Source: Bacteroidota bacterium
Lineage (GTDB): Bacteria; Bacteroidota; Rhodothermia; Balneolales; HLUCCA01
DNA: 64,000 nucleotides
Direction: 5' to 3'
Assembly: GCA_020832235.1 (NCBI GenBank)
Contig: JAFIEZ010000006.1
Coordinates: 233,077 to 297,076, forward strand
The position numbers were made by a program, and so were the translations under genes. Every line of letters starts with the position of its first letter. The first letter of the stretch is position 1. Below are positions 17,068 to 24,999 of the stretch, one piece after another. The notes below the pieces were generated by a model. That model saw nothing but the letters and a program-made list of their open reading frames with translations. It made no database searches and was not told the origin of the DNA.

Positions 17068-17333
17068 ATCAGGTAAAACTCCGTCCTGCGGCCATCGATA
17101 TACCACACTTTTTCGCCATCAAACAGGGCATTTTCCTCCAGCATGATGCGGATGCTTCGACCCCACTCCGGAATGTACACTTCCGCGTTCAATTCGATGG
17201 AGTGCGCGGTATTTGGATACAACGGATAATCCCCGGCTCCCGGCACACCTCCCTGAGCGTCCCAAAGTCCGATGGTGGTACCCGCCGCATGACCATGATA
17301 CCCAATCGGATGGGTATAAATTGTAGCCTCTAT
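17058..17333 (-). pseudogene. C-terminal fragment of an M24 family metallopeptidase (Xaa-Pro aminopeptidase-like)
   Basis: IYTHPIGYHGHAAGTTIGLWDAQGGVPGAGDYPLYPNTAHSIELNAEVYIPEWGRSIRIMLEENALFDGEKVWYIDGRRTEFYLIPR*; an in-frame stop lies just upstream at 17334-17336 and there is no N-terminus. Confidence 0.82.
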
Positions 17334-17971
17334 CTAACCCAGACATTGGTAACTCTCACATCCGTGGCCGTATTTTGGCGAATATATAGAGAGACGCTAC
17401 CAAATCTTGTTTGTCCTGGTTGTAACTGTGAGCCGGTTACTTGCTGGAAATAATTGATATTATCGGTCACAATCTCGAAAGTTACCTCATACTCGCGTGT
17501 CACTGTTGAACTGCTTGTATTTTCAAATCGATAAGAAATATCTACAAAGTTACTATCGGCACCGGCAACATTTGTCCACGAGGTAACGGAGGCTTCAAAA
17601 AACTCGGGATTTATAATTTCATCTTCCTCACGTTCTTCGAGGTAAATGCGGGCAATTGACGTTCGATTGTTACGTACTGAGACGGCAACACTGTTATTGG
17701 CATACCCTGGTTTCCTTGCCTGGATGGTGTAATTGCCAGTGAGAATGTCCTCTATGAAGAATGAACCATCCGGATTGGTAAATATGGCGTCTGTCGGGGG
17801 CGTTGTTGTGATACTGACGTTTCCTAGCCCGGTGTTGGTTTCACCGTCAACCACCATACCATCAATAGAACCAAATAATTCCGGTTCCATGGTTTCTTTT
17901 GCGCACCCTGCCGTGAATAGTAAAGCGAGTATTAGAAGTGCGGCCCAGGAGCCGGTTCTTGGATTAATCAT
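17330..17971 (-). CDS. Lipoprotein with carboxypeptidase-regulatory-like domain; last gene of the curli locus
   Basis: Lipobox LFTAGC; SIDGMVVDGETNTGLGNVSITTTPPTDAIFTNPDGSFFIEDILTGNYTIQARKPGY. Confidence 0.8.
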   Translation of the reverse strand: MINPRTGSWAALLILALLFTAGCAKETMEPELFGSIDGMVVDGETNTGLGNVSITTTPPTDAIFTNPDGSFFIEDILTGNYTIQARKPGYANNSVAVSVRNNRTSIARIYLEEREEDEIINPEFFEASVTSWTNVAGADSNFVDISYRFENTSSSTVTREYEVTFEIVTDNINYFQQVTGSQLQPGQTRFGSVSLYIRQNTATDVRVTNVWVR

Positions 17972-18010: not shown

Positions 18011-18571
18011 TCAATTTTGTTCAATTACAATTCCGATTCCGTTGCCTCTTTGCTCTATTTGAAGTGGAGTTCGCTGCTCCCCCTGTATCATAATTTGGTT
18101 TGCGTTACCGATTTGTTGTGTGTTGTGCATCAAGCCATTTGAAAAAATGTTCATGTTCAACAAATTGGACCGGCCGTGCTGCAGTGTATTTAATGTGTTG
18201 TTATTACCAATAAGTTGAATTTGAGCTTCGTTTCCACTGCCTCGCTGCGTAATACCCGCTGTGTTTTCATCACCTTCTATGGTGAGGGAAAATAGATTGG
18301 CATTTCCGTTTTGGGAGGCATCTACAAAGTTCATCATGCCAAGAATGTTCAAAAAGCTCATATTACCGGTCATGCCAGACATATTGGCCATGGTGCTTCC
18401 TTGAGCGGAACCAACATTATGTGCGGTTACAAAATCACCGCTGAATGAGCGTACGGCCTCATTATGTTCAATAGATACTTGTTCCGGGAAGACTTCTCTG
18501 GAATTGTTTTGTGCACTTACCAGGTGTGTAACCAGTGTGGCTAGCAGTAGCGTAAATAGCGCAGTCTTCAT
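18011..18571 (-). CDS. Curlin-repeat-related protein (possible minor subunit or nucleator)
   Basis: Signal peptide; ENTAGITQRGSGNEAQIQLIGNNNTLNTLQHG...QQIGNANQIMIQGEQ...IEQRGNGIGIVIEQN; divergent C-terminus. Confidence 0.75.
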   Translation of the reverse strand: MKTALFTLLLATLVTHLVSAQNNSREVFPEQVSIEHNEAVRSFSGDFVTAHNVGSAQGSTMANMSGMTGNMSFLNILGMMNFVDASQNGNANLFSLTIEGDENTAGITQRGSGNEAQIQLIGNNNTLNTLQHGRSNLLNMNIFSNGLMHNTQQIGNANQIMIQGEQRTPLQIEQRGNGIGIVIEQN

Positions 18572-18684: not shown

Positions 18685-19803
18685 TTATTGTGGTAAAAGT
18701 GGATTTAATCCAGAGAAACCATTGGTTTGGGTAATCTGCGCAGAGTTGGCATTACCTGTCTGAATAGCGGTAGCACTATGCATTTCGCCAGACTGGAAGA
18801 TGTCAAGTAAATTGCTATTACCAATAACACGGAATCCATCAGCACTCCAGTTACCTGAACCACCGGTAACGAGGTTGCCATCACCAAATTGCGTGATGAG
18901 TACATCGTTAGATGACCCTTGGATACCACCGCTGATCGTGTTGCTGCTACCATCCTGATTAATTGACAAGGTATTATTATCGATGATACCAACGCCACTG
19001 AATCCGGTTCCGGTTCCTCTTGCATTTACGTAGGCAAAGTTACTGGTACCGGATTGTGTTGCAGAAAAGTCGTTGCTGCTGCCGGTAACTTCAAGTCGTA
19101 TACGGTTGGCGTGACCGTTCTGATCCTGATAAATATCGTTGCTTTCGCCGGAAATCCAAACAGAAGCGTTGTTGTTGGTACCCAGCTGATTGCTGTAGGT
19201 GTCGTTGAGGTTACCCATAGCATTGAGGCTGTATGAATTACCGCTTCCGCCTTGATTGGCAACAGCGGTATTTGCATCACCTGTTTGCGCAGCAGTAACC
19301 GAGTTGGTGCCAGAGCCGAAGCCTGTTGGACGAAGCTGAACAACGCTTATATCGTTGCTGTTGCCTGTTTGCGCAACCGATGCTTCACTGGTAGTACTTG
19401 AACCCTCAACGGACTCAGCGTCTTGTGTGATGCTGGCTGTGTTTAGGTTTCCATCCTGATCCAGTATAATGCTTGCGCCTATACCTGATGCACCCAGAAA
19501 CTGACGACTACGCTGGAAGATGTCGGCCAGGTTACTGTTCCCAAGCTGGAAAATCTCAGCTAAAGTATTGGTATTGTCCTGAATGATATCAACTTCGTTC
19601 ATATTCCCGATTTGTTCGATACTCACATCGTGGAATTGTCCAAATTGTTGTGTTGCATTGGCAACGTTGTTAGCGCCAGACTGTTCAACTGTTGCGTTTG
19701 ATCGGTTGGTATTTTGGGTAACGGTTGCTTCGTTGCTCTGTGCCGAAACGAGTCCGGTACTGAAGATGAGTACCGTTGCGGTTAAAAGAATTCTTTTCAT
19801 CAT
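18685..19803 (-). CDS. Curlin-repeat protein (CsgA/CsgB-like)
   Basis: Signal peptide plus repeated SNxAxVxQxGxxNxAxxxQ motifs, e.g. SNEATVTQNTNRSNATVEQSGANNVANATQQFGQ. Confidence 0.92.
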   Translation of the reverse strand: MMKRILLTATVLIFSTGLVSAQSNEATVTQNTNRSNATVEQSGANNVANATQQFGQFHDVSIEQIGNMNEVDIIQDNTNTLAEIFQLGNSNLADIFQRSRQFLGASGIGASIILDQDGNLNTASITQDAESVEGSSTTSEASVAQTGNSNDISVVQLRPTGFGSGTNSVTAAQTGDANTAVANQGGSGNSYSLNAMGNLNDTYSNQLGTNNNASVWISGESNDIYQDQNGHANRIRLEVTGSSNDFSATQSGTSNFAYVNARGTGTGFSGVGIIDNNTLSINQDGSSNTISGGIQGSSNDVLITQFGDGNLVTGGSGNWSADGFRVIGNSNLLDIFQSGEMHSATAIQTGNANSAQITQTNGFSGLNPLLPQ

Positions 19804-19856: not shown

Positions 19857-21179
19857 TTAGTTTTGTGTAATTACAGCGGTGTTGCAGTTGCCATTGATTA
19901 TGGCTTGTGCACTGTTCATGGCACCTGACTGAGTGATGTTTAGTGCATTCAGATTACCTGTTATTTGAAATCCTTCTGCATCAAATCGTCCACCGCTACC
20001 CATAATGCGGTTTTGGCTTCCGTTCTGAACGAGGTTCAGTTCATTGCCGTTACCGTTTACAAATCCACTGGCGCTATTACTGTTACCACCTTGTTCAGCA
20101 TTTAGTGTGTTATTTGTAACGTTCAAGCTTCCACCGGAACCCACAAAAAACTCATTGCTGTTTCCAGCTTGCTCAACCAGATAAACGTTATCTGAGCCAA
20201 ACAGGTTAATTCGCTGGAAGTTTAGGTTTCCCAACTGAATTTGCGTGGTTACGTTTGCTGTTCCACCCACATAGGCGGCTGCACGGTTATTATCTCCGCT
20301 TTGCTCAACCAATGCGCTGTTATCTGAACCGGTTTGTGTAATGCTCATTGAGTTGTTTGATCCATTTTGATCAGCGATAACGGACTGCATATCACCTCGT
20401 TGGTCGAATTCAGCAACGTTGCTGTTACCGTTCTGGCTCGCTACAGCTTCGTGATCGGAACCTTCCTGAGTAGCTGTAATGGCATTCCCATCGCCAGTTT
20501 GTGATGTAAAAGCAGCGCTTCCTGTACCCGATACTTGGGTTAATGCCGCACTGTTATCGTTTCCACTCTGGCTTGCACTTGCTGCGTGCTGACCTGAGTT
20601 TTGACTCACCGTCGCATGGTTATCGTTGCCGCTCTGGTTTACAGAGGCGCTGTTTTGCGACTGCGCCTGCAGTACATCGGCATTGTTCCCGTCGCCGGAT
20701 TGTACAATAGAACCGCTGTTATTGCCATTGAAAGAGCGAATACGAGCGTCGTTCATAGATCCATCTTGTGAGATAGAGTGGCTATTACCCGAGCTGTAGG
20801 TGTTGCTTCTTTGCATGATTAAAGCCCTGTTCTGGTCTCCAACCTGCTCAATAACTGCTTCTCCGGACAATTGAACCCATCCTTGTACATTGCCTTGCTG
20901 TACAGTTGCTTCATTCATGTTACCGGTTTGAGAAACCTCAGCGGTATTGTCTTGTCCGTCTTGTTCTGTATTCGCTGTATTGCTGGCACCGGTTTGGGTT
21001 ACATCAGCGTCATTTCCGTCGCCGGTTTGGGTTACATCAGCGGCGTTTGTGGCGCCAGACTGAGTAACGGCGGCATCATTGCTATTGCCGCTTTGCGTAG
21101 TAGTAGCTGTATTGCTCTGCGCGAATGACAAGCTCGTAAATAAGAGCATAGCAATAAAGCCGTTTAAAAGTGGTTTCAT
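19857..21179 (-). CDS. Curlin-repeat protein (CsgA/CsgB-like)
   Basis: SNTATTTQSGNSNDAAVTQSGATNAADVTQTGDGNDADVTQTGASNTANTEQDG... Confidence 0.94.
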   Translation of the reverse strand: MKPLLNGFIAMLLFTSLSFAQSNTATTTQSGNSNDAAVTQSGATNAADVTQTGDGNDADVTQTGASNTANTEQDGQDNTAEVSQTGNMNEATVQQGNVQGWVQLSGEAVIEQVGDQNRALIMQRSNTYSSGNSHSISQDGSMNDARIRSFNGNNSGSIVQSGDGNNADVLQAQSQNSASVNQSGNDNHATVSQNSGQHAASASQSGNDNSAALTQVSGTGSAAFTSQTGDGNAITATQEGSDHEAVASQNGNSNVAEFDQRGDMQSVIADQNGSNNSMSITQTGSDNSALVEQSGDNNRAAAYVGGTANVTTQIQLGNLNFQRINLFGSDNVYLVEQAGNSNEFFVGSGGSLNVTNNTLNAEQGGNSNSASGFVNGNGNELNLVQNGSQNRIMGSGGRFDAEGFQITGNLNALNITQSGAMNSAQAIINGNCNTAVITQN

Positions 21180-21207: not shown

Positions 21208-22068
21208 TTACTCGCTTTGAGTAATGGTAGCCGTGTTCATGTTGCCAGTTTGTGTAATCACTGCAGACATTCCCATGCCAGACTGAGTAATGGTAGCACT
21301 GTTTAGATCACCATACTGAAATGTGTTTGCCATATCAGCGTTGCGTCCTGATCGAATGAGTGATTCGTTGTCATCACCGTGCTGAATTTGAGTAAAGTCT
21401 CCTCCTAAAGATCCTTCGCCTGCATTTCTAACGATCTGTGCTGAATTACGATCACCAATTTGCTCTTGAAGGATGGTACCTGGATAAACCTGTCCGCTTC
21501 CTGTTCGGTTGATAGCAGCAAGGTTGTCGTTACCAGTTTGAGTTTGCGTGATGTCAAGTAAATTAAAACCACGAAGACGATTAGCGTAAGCTTGATTACG
21601 GTCACCAGTTTGGGTTTGAGTAACCTGAATGTTAGATGATTGTGTCCATCGTTGGGCAACAGCAATGTTGCTATTCCCTAATTGTGTTTGGGTTACTTCA
21701 GAATTATTGCCGAAGTTTTGACTTGTACCTGCAGTTGCACTATTATCGTCACCGATTTGGGTCTGAGTAATCACACCGGAACCCGCAGCCTCAGCATCAG
21801 CTGTGTTTGAGTTTCCACTTTGGAATTGGTCAATAATGCCACTACCTGCATGTGCAGCAGTTGCAGCATTCAATGCGCCGATCTGTTCAATCGTTACTTC
21901 ACTGCCGTTTCCGGTTTGAGTAGAAGTGGCTGTGTTATTTGCACCGGTTTGGGTTACCGTTGCATCGTTGTTGTTACCGTCTTGAGTAACCGTTGCTTCG
22001 TTGCTTTGTGCAAATGCCATTGTGGCACCTAACAAAAGCATGAATGTTAGATTAGCTATCTTTTTCAT
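21208..22068 (-). CDS. Curlin-repeat protein (CsgA/CsgB-like)
   Basis: MKKIANLTFMLLLGATMAFAQSNEATVTQDGNNNDATVTQTGANNTATSTQTGNGSEV; start placed at the internal Met giving a clean signal peptide rather than ORF start 22110. Confidence 0.92.
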   Translation of the reverse strand: MKKIANLTFMLLLGATMAFAQSNEATVTQDGNNNDATVTQTGANNTATSTQTGNGSEVTIEQIGALNAATAAHAGSGIIDQFQSGNSNTADAEAAGSGVITQTQIGDDNSATAGTSQNFGNNSEVTQTQLGNSNIAVAQRWTQSSNIQVTQTQTGDRNQAYANRLRGFNLLDITQTQTGNDNLAAINRTGSGQVYPGTILQEQIGDRNSAQIVRNAGEGSLGGDFTQIQHGDDNESLIRSGRNADMANTFQYGDLNSATITQSGMGMSAVITQTGNMNTATITQSE

Positions 22069-22157
22069 CGTTCTTCCTGTTTTTTTGTTGCTTATTGCGA
22101 ATCCTGCCAATATTCTGGCAGAAACTCACCCCGTTCGGTTGTGAGATGGTTTGAGAG

Positions 22158-22309: not shown

Positions 22310-23686
22310 TTATCTTCTAAATCGGTACGTTACACTGACCCTGAACGACCAGTGCTGATCATTAAACCTTCCTAAAGCTACTCCGTCAAGTCCGTCAACC
22401 AACAGATACCTGTAGTTTAGTCCGGCTCGCAAGCCTACATTAGACCTGCTTCGAATATCCAGTCCGGCTTCACCGGCTGCGTATGGAAATACAAAATCGT
22501 CTTGCCCATCAAATCGTGTGTCAAAAACAAACGATCCTCCACCAGCAGACACATAAGGCGTAATGCCACTCCAGTAAAGGAAATAGTGTGAAGCCGTAAA
22601 ATCGAATGCATTTACAGACGCACTAAACGCATTTGGGGCACTGATGCGATTTCTATCTGCATTCAGGCTTAAGGAATACCCGTTGTTAAAGCCACGCTCA
22701 ATCTGCAATCCGCCACCCAGGTTGAAATCGGGATTGGCATAGTTGCCGATAATTGAGCCATACTGCATGCTCGCATGTACATGCCAGCCGCTGCGCAGAT
22801 TCGTTCTATTGGTAAATCCGAAATAGTCACGTTGTTGCTGCAATTCAAGCGCTCTTGCAACAGCAAAGTTGTTTTTAAATGTCTCCACTTCGTTTTGGTC
22901 CTGTGGCAACCATAACCCATCATCTATACCCTCTATAATCAACATTTTAACGGCTTCATCAATAGCTTCTGTAACAGCCATTACAACCGGTTCGTTGTAG
23001 GTGAATCCGGCTTCAGCTTCCAGAAGTCTGTTCTGACTAATAAACCGAAACACCCCGCTGTCGAGCTGTTGTGAAATTACCGATTTGGTTGTGTGTACCG
23101 TTTTCAAAATACGTCCGCTTTGGGTAGAAACGGCCCTCAGATAGATGGTGACCTGATCTTTCCTGTAATTGGTAGATGCGCCAATGCCTAAATATCGGGC
23201 CCCGGCTCCTCCCGTCATGATGTTCGTATCGTAACCGATTATGCCGCCTTCAAGTACTACACCTGCAAATAGCAGCGGTGGAAGAGGCTGTGCGGGCGCG
23301 TTACCGGCGTGCTGCTGACGAATTTGCTGAATAATGTTACGCTCATTGAGCAGGTTTGAAATGTTCTCACGCTCGATTGGAATGAACCATCCGGAGTCTT
23401 CAAGGGATTTTAGCAAAATGGATGTAGCGCCTTGGGTAACGGCTGTAGACCAGCTTGCAATGCGGTCGGAAGCCTTGTATTGCCCGGTTTGATCTCTGAA
23501 ACGATAGACTGCTGCAACGACGGGTTCCTGAGGTGCGGGTAATTCCAATAACTTGTGGTGAGAAGCACTAAGCGTGCCAGGATGTGCGCTTTCAACATAC
23601 ATTGGTCGCGTAGCACCAGCACACCCGGCAACTAGCATCAGTGCTCCGGCTAAGAAAATGGCGGTATGTGTGTTAAGCGGCTTCAT
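22310..23686 (-). CDS. csgG: Curli secretion channel lipoprotein CsgG with extra C-terminal barrel-like domain
   Basis: Lipobox ALMLVAGC; CsgG core ...FTYNEPVVMAVTEAIDEAVKMLIIEGIDDGLW; then about 195 extra residues with alternating pattern ending SFRVSVTYRFRR. Confidence 0.92.
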   Translation of the reverse strand: MKPLNTHTAIFLAGALMLVAGCAGATRPMYVESAHPGTLSASHHKLLELPAPQEPVVAAVYRFRDQTGQYKASDRIASWSTAVTQGATSILLKSLEDSGWFIPIERENISNLLNERNIIQQIRQQHAGNAPAQPLPPLLFAGVVLEGGIIGYDTNIMTGGAGARYLGIGASTNYRKDQVTIYLRAVSTQSGRILKTVHTTKSVISQQLDSGVFRFISQNRLLEAEAGFTYNEPVVMAVTEAIDEAVKMLIIEGIDDGLWLPQDQNEVETFKNNFAVARALELQQQRDYFGFTNRTNLRSGWHVHASMQYGSIIGNYANPDFNLGGGLQIERGFNNGYSLSLNADRNRISAPNAFSASVNAFDFTASHYFLYWSGITPYVSAGGGSFVFDTRFDGQDDFVFPYAAGEAGLDIRSRSNVGLRAGLNYRYLLVDGLDGVALGRFNDQHWSFRVSVTYRFRR

Positions 23687-23689
23687 AGA

Positions 23690-24118
23690 TTAAAACTGCG
23701 GCACGGTGATACTGGTTTCATCGCCAGTTAGAATGTTAAAAATGCGAATGCGTACACCACCGTCAACCGAATTGATCTCAATATTGAACTCGCCGAACTC
23801 GAATGTTGAGTCTGTTTGTCGCGCACCCTCACTGCCAAATTGATTTTGAATAATATCGCGGGTTAGCTGTGAGAGTACTTGTCGCTGCAACGACTGTTGA
23901 AAGTCTTCCAATGGGTCCCGCTGAAAACCGACTGCTCCACGCTGCTCTTGAAAACGATTTTGTGCGTTGGCAGAGCTCAACATCCATGAATAATTCACGG
24001 GGTTACCACCAAAAGCCGGATTTTTTGGCTCATAAACCATCTGTTGGGCCGATAGGGTAGCGCTACCAATGATGAGTGCCGTTACAGAAGAAAGTGCTAT
24101 GTAAAGAATACGTTTCAT
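23690..24118 (-). CDS. csgF: Curli assembly protein CsgF
   Basis: QQMVYEPKNPAFGGNPVNYSWMLSSANAQN...LTRDIIQNQFG...INSVDGGVRIRIFNILTGDETSITVPQF; start set at ATG 24118 (MKRIL) rather than TTG 24124. Confidence 0.93.
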   Translation of the reverse strand: MKRILYIALSSVTALIIGSATLSAQQMVYEPKNPAFGGNPVNYSWMLSSANAQNRFQEQRGAVGFQRDPLEDFQQSLQRQVLSQLTRDIIQNQFGSEGARQTDSTFEFGEFNIEINSVDGGVRIRIFNILTGDETSITVPQF

Positions 24119-24120
24119 GT

Positions 24121-24999
24121 TCAATAAATAACTTGTTGACCTAAGTTGTTCGATAACACAAAGTATGTGTGCCGTACAGCCTCAATGCCGGCTTGCTCAA
24201 TTTCTTCGAATCGAGGCTGTAGCCGGTTTCTGTACACGAGCCGCTCATTCACCTGAATGGAAACGACGGTTCCCAAATTTGGTGAGGGCTGCTCAGAAAT
24301 AGTGATAGAGAAGTTTGAAGCATTGGATGGTGCCTGCCAATTGGCGTAGAAAACATCATAAAAATCACGACCAATTTTCGTAATGGTCTCATCCAACAGC
24401 ATACCATCGAGTTCGAAGAATATTTGCTGTTCCTGCTGTTGCTGCAACTCAGATGGCTGTGCTTGAGGACGTTCTGCCTGTTGGCTTTGTGTTGTGGCAG
24501 AGATTTGTTCTTCCTGAATAAGCGCATTAAAAGCTGCCCGAAACTGTTCCAACGTTTTGTCGTTGGTTAACTCCTGTTCCTCATCATTGGATGTGACTTC
24601 TGCCAGCTGATTTTGATATGACTCTAACAGATTAATGAAGTAACTCGTTAAAAACTCTTTATTCACTTCATTGGCAGGTAGGCTTGTAAAGCTGCATGAC
24701 AAGCTTGATAAAATCGTGAAGAGGTTTTCTGATTGACCTTTTTCCACGATAATTCGAGGTATTTTGATTTCCTGATCAGGGAAGATCCGGTGTGGGTTTT
24801 GCATGGTGTTGGCGTTTACTATGTAGATAGCCTGCCAGAAACGATAGTCACCATAACTCATCGCAATCCGATACAAATTGTCGTTCGGCTGAACAATGTA
24901 TGCAACCGATTCATCAGAACAGTCTGGCGATGAAGCTGATTCAGCTATCGTAAGATTGGATGAACCCAGCATTAATAATATCAGGACGATTGCTTTCAT
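24121..24999 (-). CDS. csgE: LysM domain - CsgE fusion (curli assembly chaperone)
   Basis: LysM AYIVQPNDNLYRIAMSYGDYRFWQAIYIVNANTMQNPHRIFPDQEIKIP; CsgE LDGMLLDETITKIGRDFYDVFYANWQ...NFSITISEQPSPNLGTVVSIQVNERLVYRNRLQP. Confidence 0.9.
   Translation of the reverse strand: MKAIVLILLMLGSSNLTIAESASSPDCSDESVAYIVQPNDNLYRIAMSYGDYRFWQAIYIVNANTMQNPHRIFPDQEIKIPRIIVEKGQSENLFTILSSLSCSFTSLPANEVNKEFLTSYFINLLESYQNQLAEVTSNDEEQELTNDKTLEQFRAAFNALIQEEQISATTQSQQAERPQAQPSELQQQQEQQIFFELDGMLLDETITKIGRDFYDVFYANWQAPSNASNFSITISEQPSPNLGTVVSIQVNERLVYRNRLQPRFEEIEQAGIEAVRHTYFVLSNNLGQQVIY

Follow-up and report, generated by a model that had tools for sequence, protein, structure and literature searches.

The curli locus analysed here encodes a CsgE protein that carries an N-terminal LysM module, and this fusion, which is real, is a lineage trait of Balneolales and not general to the CsgE proteins of Bacteroidota. 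The locus lies in a 64,000-nucleotide stretch of DNA from a Balneolales genome (the window, by which the whole of that stretch is meant). Its csgE-like gene had been placed correctly, at positions 24121-24999, by a first-pass annotation made from the sequence alone; the coding strand is the minus strand, read from 24999 to 24121, and the plus strand is riddled with stop codons over the same interval (Table 1).

Architecture of the protein and its locus

The first-pass annotation had recognized a LysM module at about residues 33-83 and a CsgE domain at about residues 193-292, and both are borne out. Against a Pfam cut-off of 20.9, LysM (PF01476) scores 32.7 bits (E 7e-8) over residues 34-81; CsgE (PF10627) scores 79.1 bits (E 4e-22) over residues 197-278, where the cut-off is 25. 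Among PDB sequences, the protein matches E. coli CsgE over residues 195-284 (2na4; E 1e-9) and also the LysM of SafA (E 0.003). The best NCBIfam matches are to the E. coli CsgE family and to a Kbp-type LysM, both under their equivalog cut-offs. In an AlphaFold2 model built from 22 sequences, the pLDDT of LysM is about 88-96 over residues 31-90, with strands at 31-35 and 77-81 and helices at 42-48 and 54-61 making up a beta-alpha-alpha-beta fold, and the confidence of the CsgE domain is 90-97 over residues 201-280. Confidence is low around residues 170-196 (pLDDT under 50 for linker residues 176-196), and, as the overall pTM is 0.37, the model does not predict how the domains are placed relative to each other. 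Foldseek aligns the C-terminal part of the model with 2na4 at a TM-score of 0.72 on the target (E 9e-6). For the N-terminal part it gives the LysM of Kbp (rmsd 1.2 Å over 53 columns; E 0.02) and also LysM domains of phage baseplates.

Table 1. Features of the LysM–CsgE gene and of the surrounding curli locus (positions in the window)
Feature	Position	Strand	Basis
csgE-like gene, LysM–CsgE fusion, 292 aa	24121..24999	-	open reading frame; Pfam LysM and CsgE
Predicted Sec signal peptide, about residues 1-19	24943..24999	-	sequence inspection; predicted cleavage site
Cys27, predicted disulfide partner of Cys102	24919..24921	-	conserved spacing
LysM module, residues 34-82	24754..24900	-	Pfam PF01476; conservation in relatives; model pLDDT; Foldseek to Kbp LysM
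Cys102, predicted disulfide partner of Cys27	24694..24696	-	conserved spacing
Conserved linker helix LxxFRxAFxxL, residues 149-165	24505..24555	-	40% mean identity
CsgE domain, residues 196-292	24124..24414	-	PF10627; PDB 2na4
csgF	23690..24124	-	PF10614 E 4e-41; start overlaps csgE stop by 4 bp
csgG, 458 aa: CsgG lipoprotein pore subunit and C-terminal extension	22310..23686	-	PF03783 E 1e-66
CsgG C-terminal extension, modelled eight-stranded beta-barrel	22310-22879	-	AlphaFold2 strands 300-455; Foldseek to NspA, OmpA
Curlin-repeat protein 1 (CsgA/B-like)	21208..22110	-	PF07012, 5 repeats
Curlin-repeat protein 2	19857..21179	-	PF07012, 13 repeats
Curlin-repeat protein 3	18685..19803	-	PF07012, 11 repeats
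Curlin-repeat protein 4 (degenerate)	18011..18571	-	PF07012, 2 repeats
Curli-linked lipoprotein, carboxypeptidase-regulatory-like domain	17330..17971	-	PF13620 E 4e-11

The two domains had been described as joined by a Q/E-rich linker of about 110 residues. The length holds (114 residues, 83-196), but only the last 35 or so residues are Q-rich; before them the linker is predicted to be helical (109-136 and 142-173). The LxxFRxAFxxL helix is found also in CsgE proteins of Balneolales that lack LysM (L003, L044), and so belongs to the CsgE side of the protein. Among 21 clear LysM–CsgE proteins, mean pairwise identity is 55% for CsgE, 48% for LysM and 40% for this helix (residues 149-165), and 16-20% for the remaining linker. 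Since the identity of LysM is near that of CsgE and far above that of the linkers, the module is probably functional, as judged from conservation. Most members retain the motifs GD-L and N-D-I-NP-I-PGQ-L-IP, from which the LysM of the window departs twice (ND for GD, PDQ for PGQ).

A pair of cysteines flanking LysM, 75-76 residues apart, occurs in 11 Balneolales CsgE proteins, not in every member; from this conserved spacing, Cys27 and Cys102 probably form a disulfide. The 11 proteins include three (L011, L043 and L048) in which the LysM motif is so decayed as to be barely detectable. By inspection, the signal peptide has no lipobox, so that a soluble periplasmic protein is to be expected, with its LysM in the compartment of the usual LysM ligand. 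Anchoring as a lipoprotein was considered and rejected, Cys27 having no lipobox and pairing by its spacing with Cys102.

The csgE gene heads a compact minus-strand locus, in which csgE, csgF and csgG are succeeded by four curlin genes and then a lipoprotein gene. The locus belongs to the curli (type VIII) secretion system, the CsgG pore, CsgF, CsgE and curlin-repeat subunits all being encoded, and the genome (in 20 contigs) has a single copy of each of csgE, csgF and csgG. All three genes are absent from a genus-mate (G223), and CsgE is absent from another genome of the same genus (G449), so the curli system is patchy. The C-terminal extension of CsgG, as modelled by AlphaFold2, resembles NspA and OmpA (Foldseek TM-scores of 0.83 and 0.79, respectively, on the targets). 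A similar extension of about 190 residues is present in nearly every complete Bacteroidota CsgG read (loci L061-L122) and absent from enterobacterial CsgG (277 aa); if CsgG is nonameric here, the pore would be ringed by nine satellite barrels.

Distribution of LysM among CsgE proteins

Across 395 sampled Bacteroidota genomes, Pfam found LysM in 10 of the 42 CsgE proteins that were read. CsgE occurs in 27/129 genomes of the order Balneolales, and 23 of the 34 Balneolales CsgE proteins scanned have LysM (Pfam, E up to 0.05). A LysM profile built from clear cases was run on 148 non-redundant CsgE proteins: it matched 29 of them below E 0.02, all from Balneolales (including the three eroded examples L011, L043 and L048), and none of about 120 from elsewhere (other Bacteroidota, enterobacteria and one thermodesulfobacterium). 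LysM is absent from the CsgE of sister lineages in the same class as Balneolales, and from further CsgE of the class of G354 and of the large class that holds G166. The possibility that most Bacteroidota CsgE proteins are LysM fusions, which the first-pass annotation had named as grounds for refuting its proposal, was tested by these counts and came out negative. Enterobacterial CsgE, at 129-138 aa, has no room for LysM. Phyla beyond Bacteroidota were represented by 18 enterobacterial loci, the one thermodesulfobacterium and plasmid matches, which (n=24) extended over the CsgE part only, at most 33% of the query; CsgE was not found in phage records or viral contigs, and a single-protein search of genome contigs gave no relative.

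In a tree of the CsgE domain (about 100 residues), the LysM label clusters strongly, a pattern that does not separate one gain with subsequent losses from several gains. Within Balneolales, no LysM is detectable in L003, L031, L044 and L154. In G400, a strong LysM in the CsgE frame (L045, upstream of 1336) is split off by an in-frame TAG, which may denote a pseudogene, an assembly error or a split gene. There is also a second type of Balneolales CsgE (L055, L056, L057, L152 and L153), in which the N-terminus is long and helical and LysM lies internally; these proteins are mostly of 444-511 aa (L152, near a contig end, reads 336 aa). One record titled Ectothiorhodospiraceae (L093) has a CsgE identical to that of G605, from the Bacteroidota class search, and is probably a mislabelled MAG. 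Each of the two families, CsgE and LysM, is well known; in the open-access literature searched, no paper was found to mention the two together, and the combination appears to be undescribed there.

Genes for csgF, csgG and curlins adjoin the LysM–CsgE gene in other Balneolales (L159, L160, L161, L164 and L171), csgF and then csgG coming after it, as in the window, in L159, L160 and L164. G211 encodes a single CsgF and a single CsgG but three CsgE proteins, of which two have LysM. The third, which lacks it, is beside csgF and csgG (L158); the two LysM–CsgE genes adjoin curlin clusters, with neither csgF nor csgG there (L156, L157). This arrangement points to CsgE adaptors that go in pairs with subunits and use a common channel. 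Because the LysM-less CsgE of G211 is the one accompanied by csgF and csgG, LysM is not needed for CsgE to be maintained, and because CsgE proteins of both kinds coexist with a single CsgG, LysM is dispensable to the channel. With LysM also eroded or lost in several Balneolales, CsgE function cannot depend on a tether.

Comparison with known CsgE and LysM proteins

The window protein shares with E. coli CsgE (PF10627; PDB 2na4) the CsgE domain and its fold, a periplasmic signal and csgF/csgG neighbours, and differs from it in the added LysM and linker, the E. coli protein being of 129 aa with no extra domain. E. coli CsgE does not function without R47, a residue reported to be 100% conserved in a set of 397 sequences close to E. 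coli (PMC6050966). The window protein does not have this residue: by alignment the position is Asn241, and all 27 aligned Balneolales CsgE have Ser, Asn, Gly or Thr there; other non-enterobacterial CsgE mostly have Gly, and the residue is nearly always other than Arg in other Bacteroidota. R47 therefore does not define the wider family, and the window protein remains a member by its domain, fold and locus. Arg259 and Arg/Lys263, close to the beta3-alpha2 head loop, are each present in 27/27 Balneolales CsgE, and the alignment is consistent with the idea that the positive head of CsgE may have been rebuilt from other residues. Enterobacterial rules such as the essential R47 or the 277-residue CsgG thus fail across Bacteroidota.

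As a LysM (PF01476), the module has in common with the nearest named families, Kbp/YgaU (PRK11198), SafA and LipL71, the beta-alpha-alpha-beta fold and the GD-L and PGQ-L-IP motifs; it is unlike them in being fused to CsgE, flanked by cysteines and altered at two motif residues. Kbp has been described as a potassium-binding protein (PMC5681659), and the likeness to neither Kbp nor SafA is evidence of wall binding.

A second lineage-specific periplasmic module is found at the N-terminus of CsgE in Flavobacteriia and in a Saprospiraceae MAG (L028, L029, L033, L120, L122, L103 and others; alignment A6). These fusions resemble the window protein in that respect, but the flavobacterial module has an amyloid-inhibitor fold, not that of LysM: it is CsgC/CsgH-like, with PF10610 in 10/15, a profile match to PDB CsgC (E 1e-5) and NCBIfam CsgH (NF041112) on the N-terminal part, above the cut-off in one protein, L120. 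In the survey by Dueholm (2012; PMC3521004), the curli systems of Bacteroidota have several curlins and no csgC, and csgD is generally absent. The window locus shares with the systems described there the curli genes, several curlins and the lack of csgC, and LysM is not mentioned in the main text of the survey, as searched, nor did the passages found there deal with extensions of CsgE. The CsgC/CsgH-like domain fused to CsgE may account for the csgC reported there as missing from Bacteroidota. In a Balneolales MAG (G467), a free-standing CsgC/CsgH-like gene (L174:1471-1899, minus strand) is clustered with a CsgE gene in which no LysM is detectable.

Possible roles of the LysM module

The binding of glycans by LysM domains is established, several GlcNAc glycans being bound by them, and anchoring to peptidoglycan by the LysM of CsgE is plausible. 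In E. coli, nine CsgE molecules form a cap over the periplasmic opening of CsgG and engage the amyloid repeats of CsgA (PMC6957492, PMC6050966), and by analogy in domain, locus and fold the core role of the window protein is likely to be the same. We see about an even chance that in Balneolales this adaptor is, in addition, tethered to the wall by contact between LysM and peptidoglycan. After Sec export, the C-terminal CsgE domain would bind unfolded curlin and cap the underside of the CsgG pore, and the N-terminal LysM, held by the predicted Cys27–Cys102 disulfide, would bind glycan strands of peptidoglycan. A nine-copy cap would offer up to nine weak LysM contacts, adding up to a multivalent whole, and the 114-residue linker should be long enough to span the distance from cap to wall; CsgE and its curlin cargo would then be retained beneath the outer membrane, at export sites anchored to the wall, rather than being free to diffuse in the periplasm. 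Here the capping of CsgG, the nine-copy state and the peptidoglycan ligand are taken from knowledge of the families, and we infer the tethering effect ourselves. Wall tethering is favoured by the presence of LysM in the periplasm, where the ligand usual for such domains is found, together with the multivalency of a nine-copy cap and the long linker; the ND and PDQ changes in the window, the erosion or loss of LysM in relatives, and Kbp and SafA as the nearest named families would all argue against it.

Some of the same evidence leaves room for a module that binds no peptidoglycan and serves for structure or protein docking, on CsgE itself, on CsgG (for example on its extra barrel) or on curlin. 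In Kbp, LysM and the BON domain have been described as interacting when K+ is present (PMC5681659), phage baseplate LysM domains are among the closest neighbours, and the three relatives with an eroded glycan-type motif keep the flanking cysteines and their spacing, as if the fold outweighed the groove. Yet most members retain canonical LysM motifs, the low-confidence linker (residues 176-196) speaks against tight packing on CsgE, and there is no known partner, so that docking is to our minds possible but rather doubtful. It seems improbable that LysM is a passenger, an ancestral Balneolales fusion now decaying with little effect, with function left entirely to the CsgE domain. Several lineages have indeed lost or eroded it, an intact-looking LysM is parted from CsgE in G400, and LysM-less CsgE has its own csgF and csgG in G211, G203 and G404; but the conservation of LysM relative to CsgE and the linkers in the 21 members points to purifying selection. 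The known range of GlcNAc ligands would allow binding to sugars other than peptidoglycan, such as a matrix polysaccharide, were CsgE to reach the outside; this is very unlikely, as CsgE is a periplasmic cap in the system studied (PMC6957492), and a second export signal was not seen in LysM–CsgE. A mis-joined or mis-called gene is already refuted by the recurrence of the architecture in many independent Balneolales genomes of different families.

A broader and more tentative picture may also be drawn, in which Bacteroidota curli export would be a modular, envelope-anchored machine and CsgE an exchangeable adaptor, furnished with LysM in Balneolales or with a CsgC/CsgH-like inhibitor in Flavobacteriia. 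A multivalent LysM cap would pin the Balneolales pore to peptidoglycan, and several CsgE adaptors for different curlin clusters would share one CsgG, each of whose subunits would have an extra eight-stranded outer-membrane barrel. In E. coli, CsgE is small and acts as a free cap in the periplasm, and a conserved LysM that is frequent across an order makes the fixation of amyloid export sites to the wall a testable idea; the adaptors with LysM, with a CsgC/H-like domain or with neither also constitute a natural domain-swap series with which to probe what the cap requires.

Lastly, we draw attention to the lipoprotein gene at the end of the window locus. Similar lipoproteins with a carboxypeptidase-regulatory-like domain adjoin curli genes in eight other Balneolales loci (L159, L161, L162, L165, L167, L171, L172 and L174), and it is possible that they represent a new curli accessory gene.
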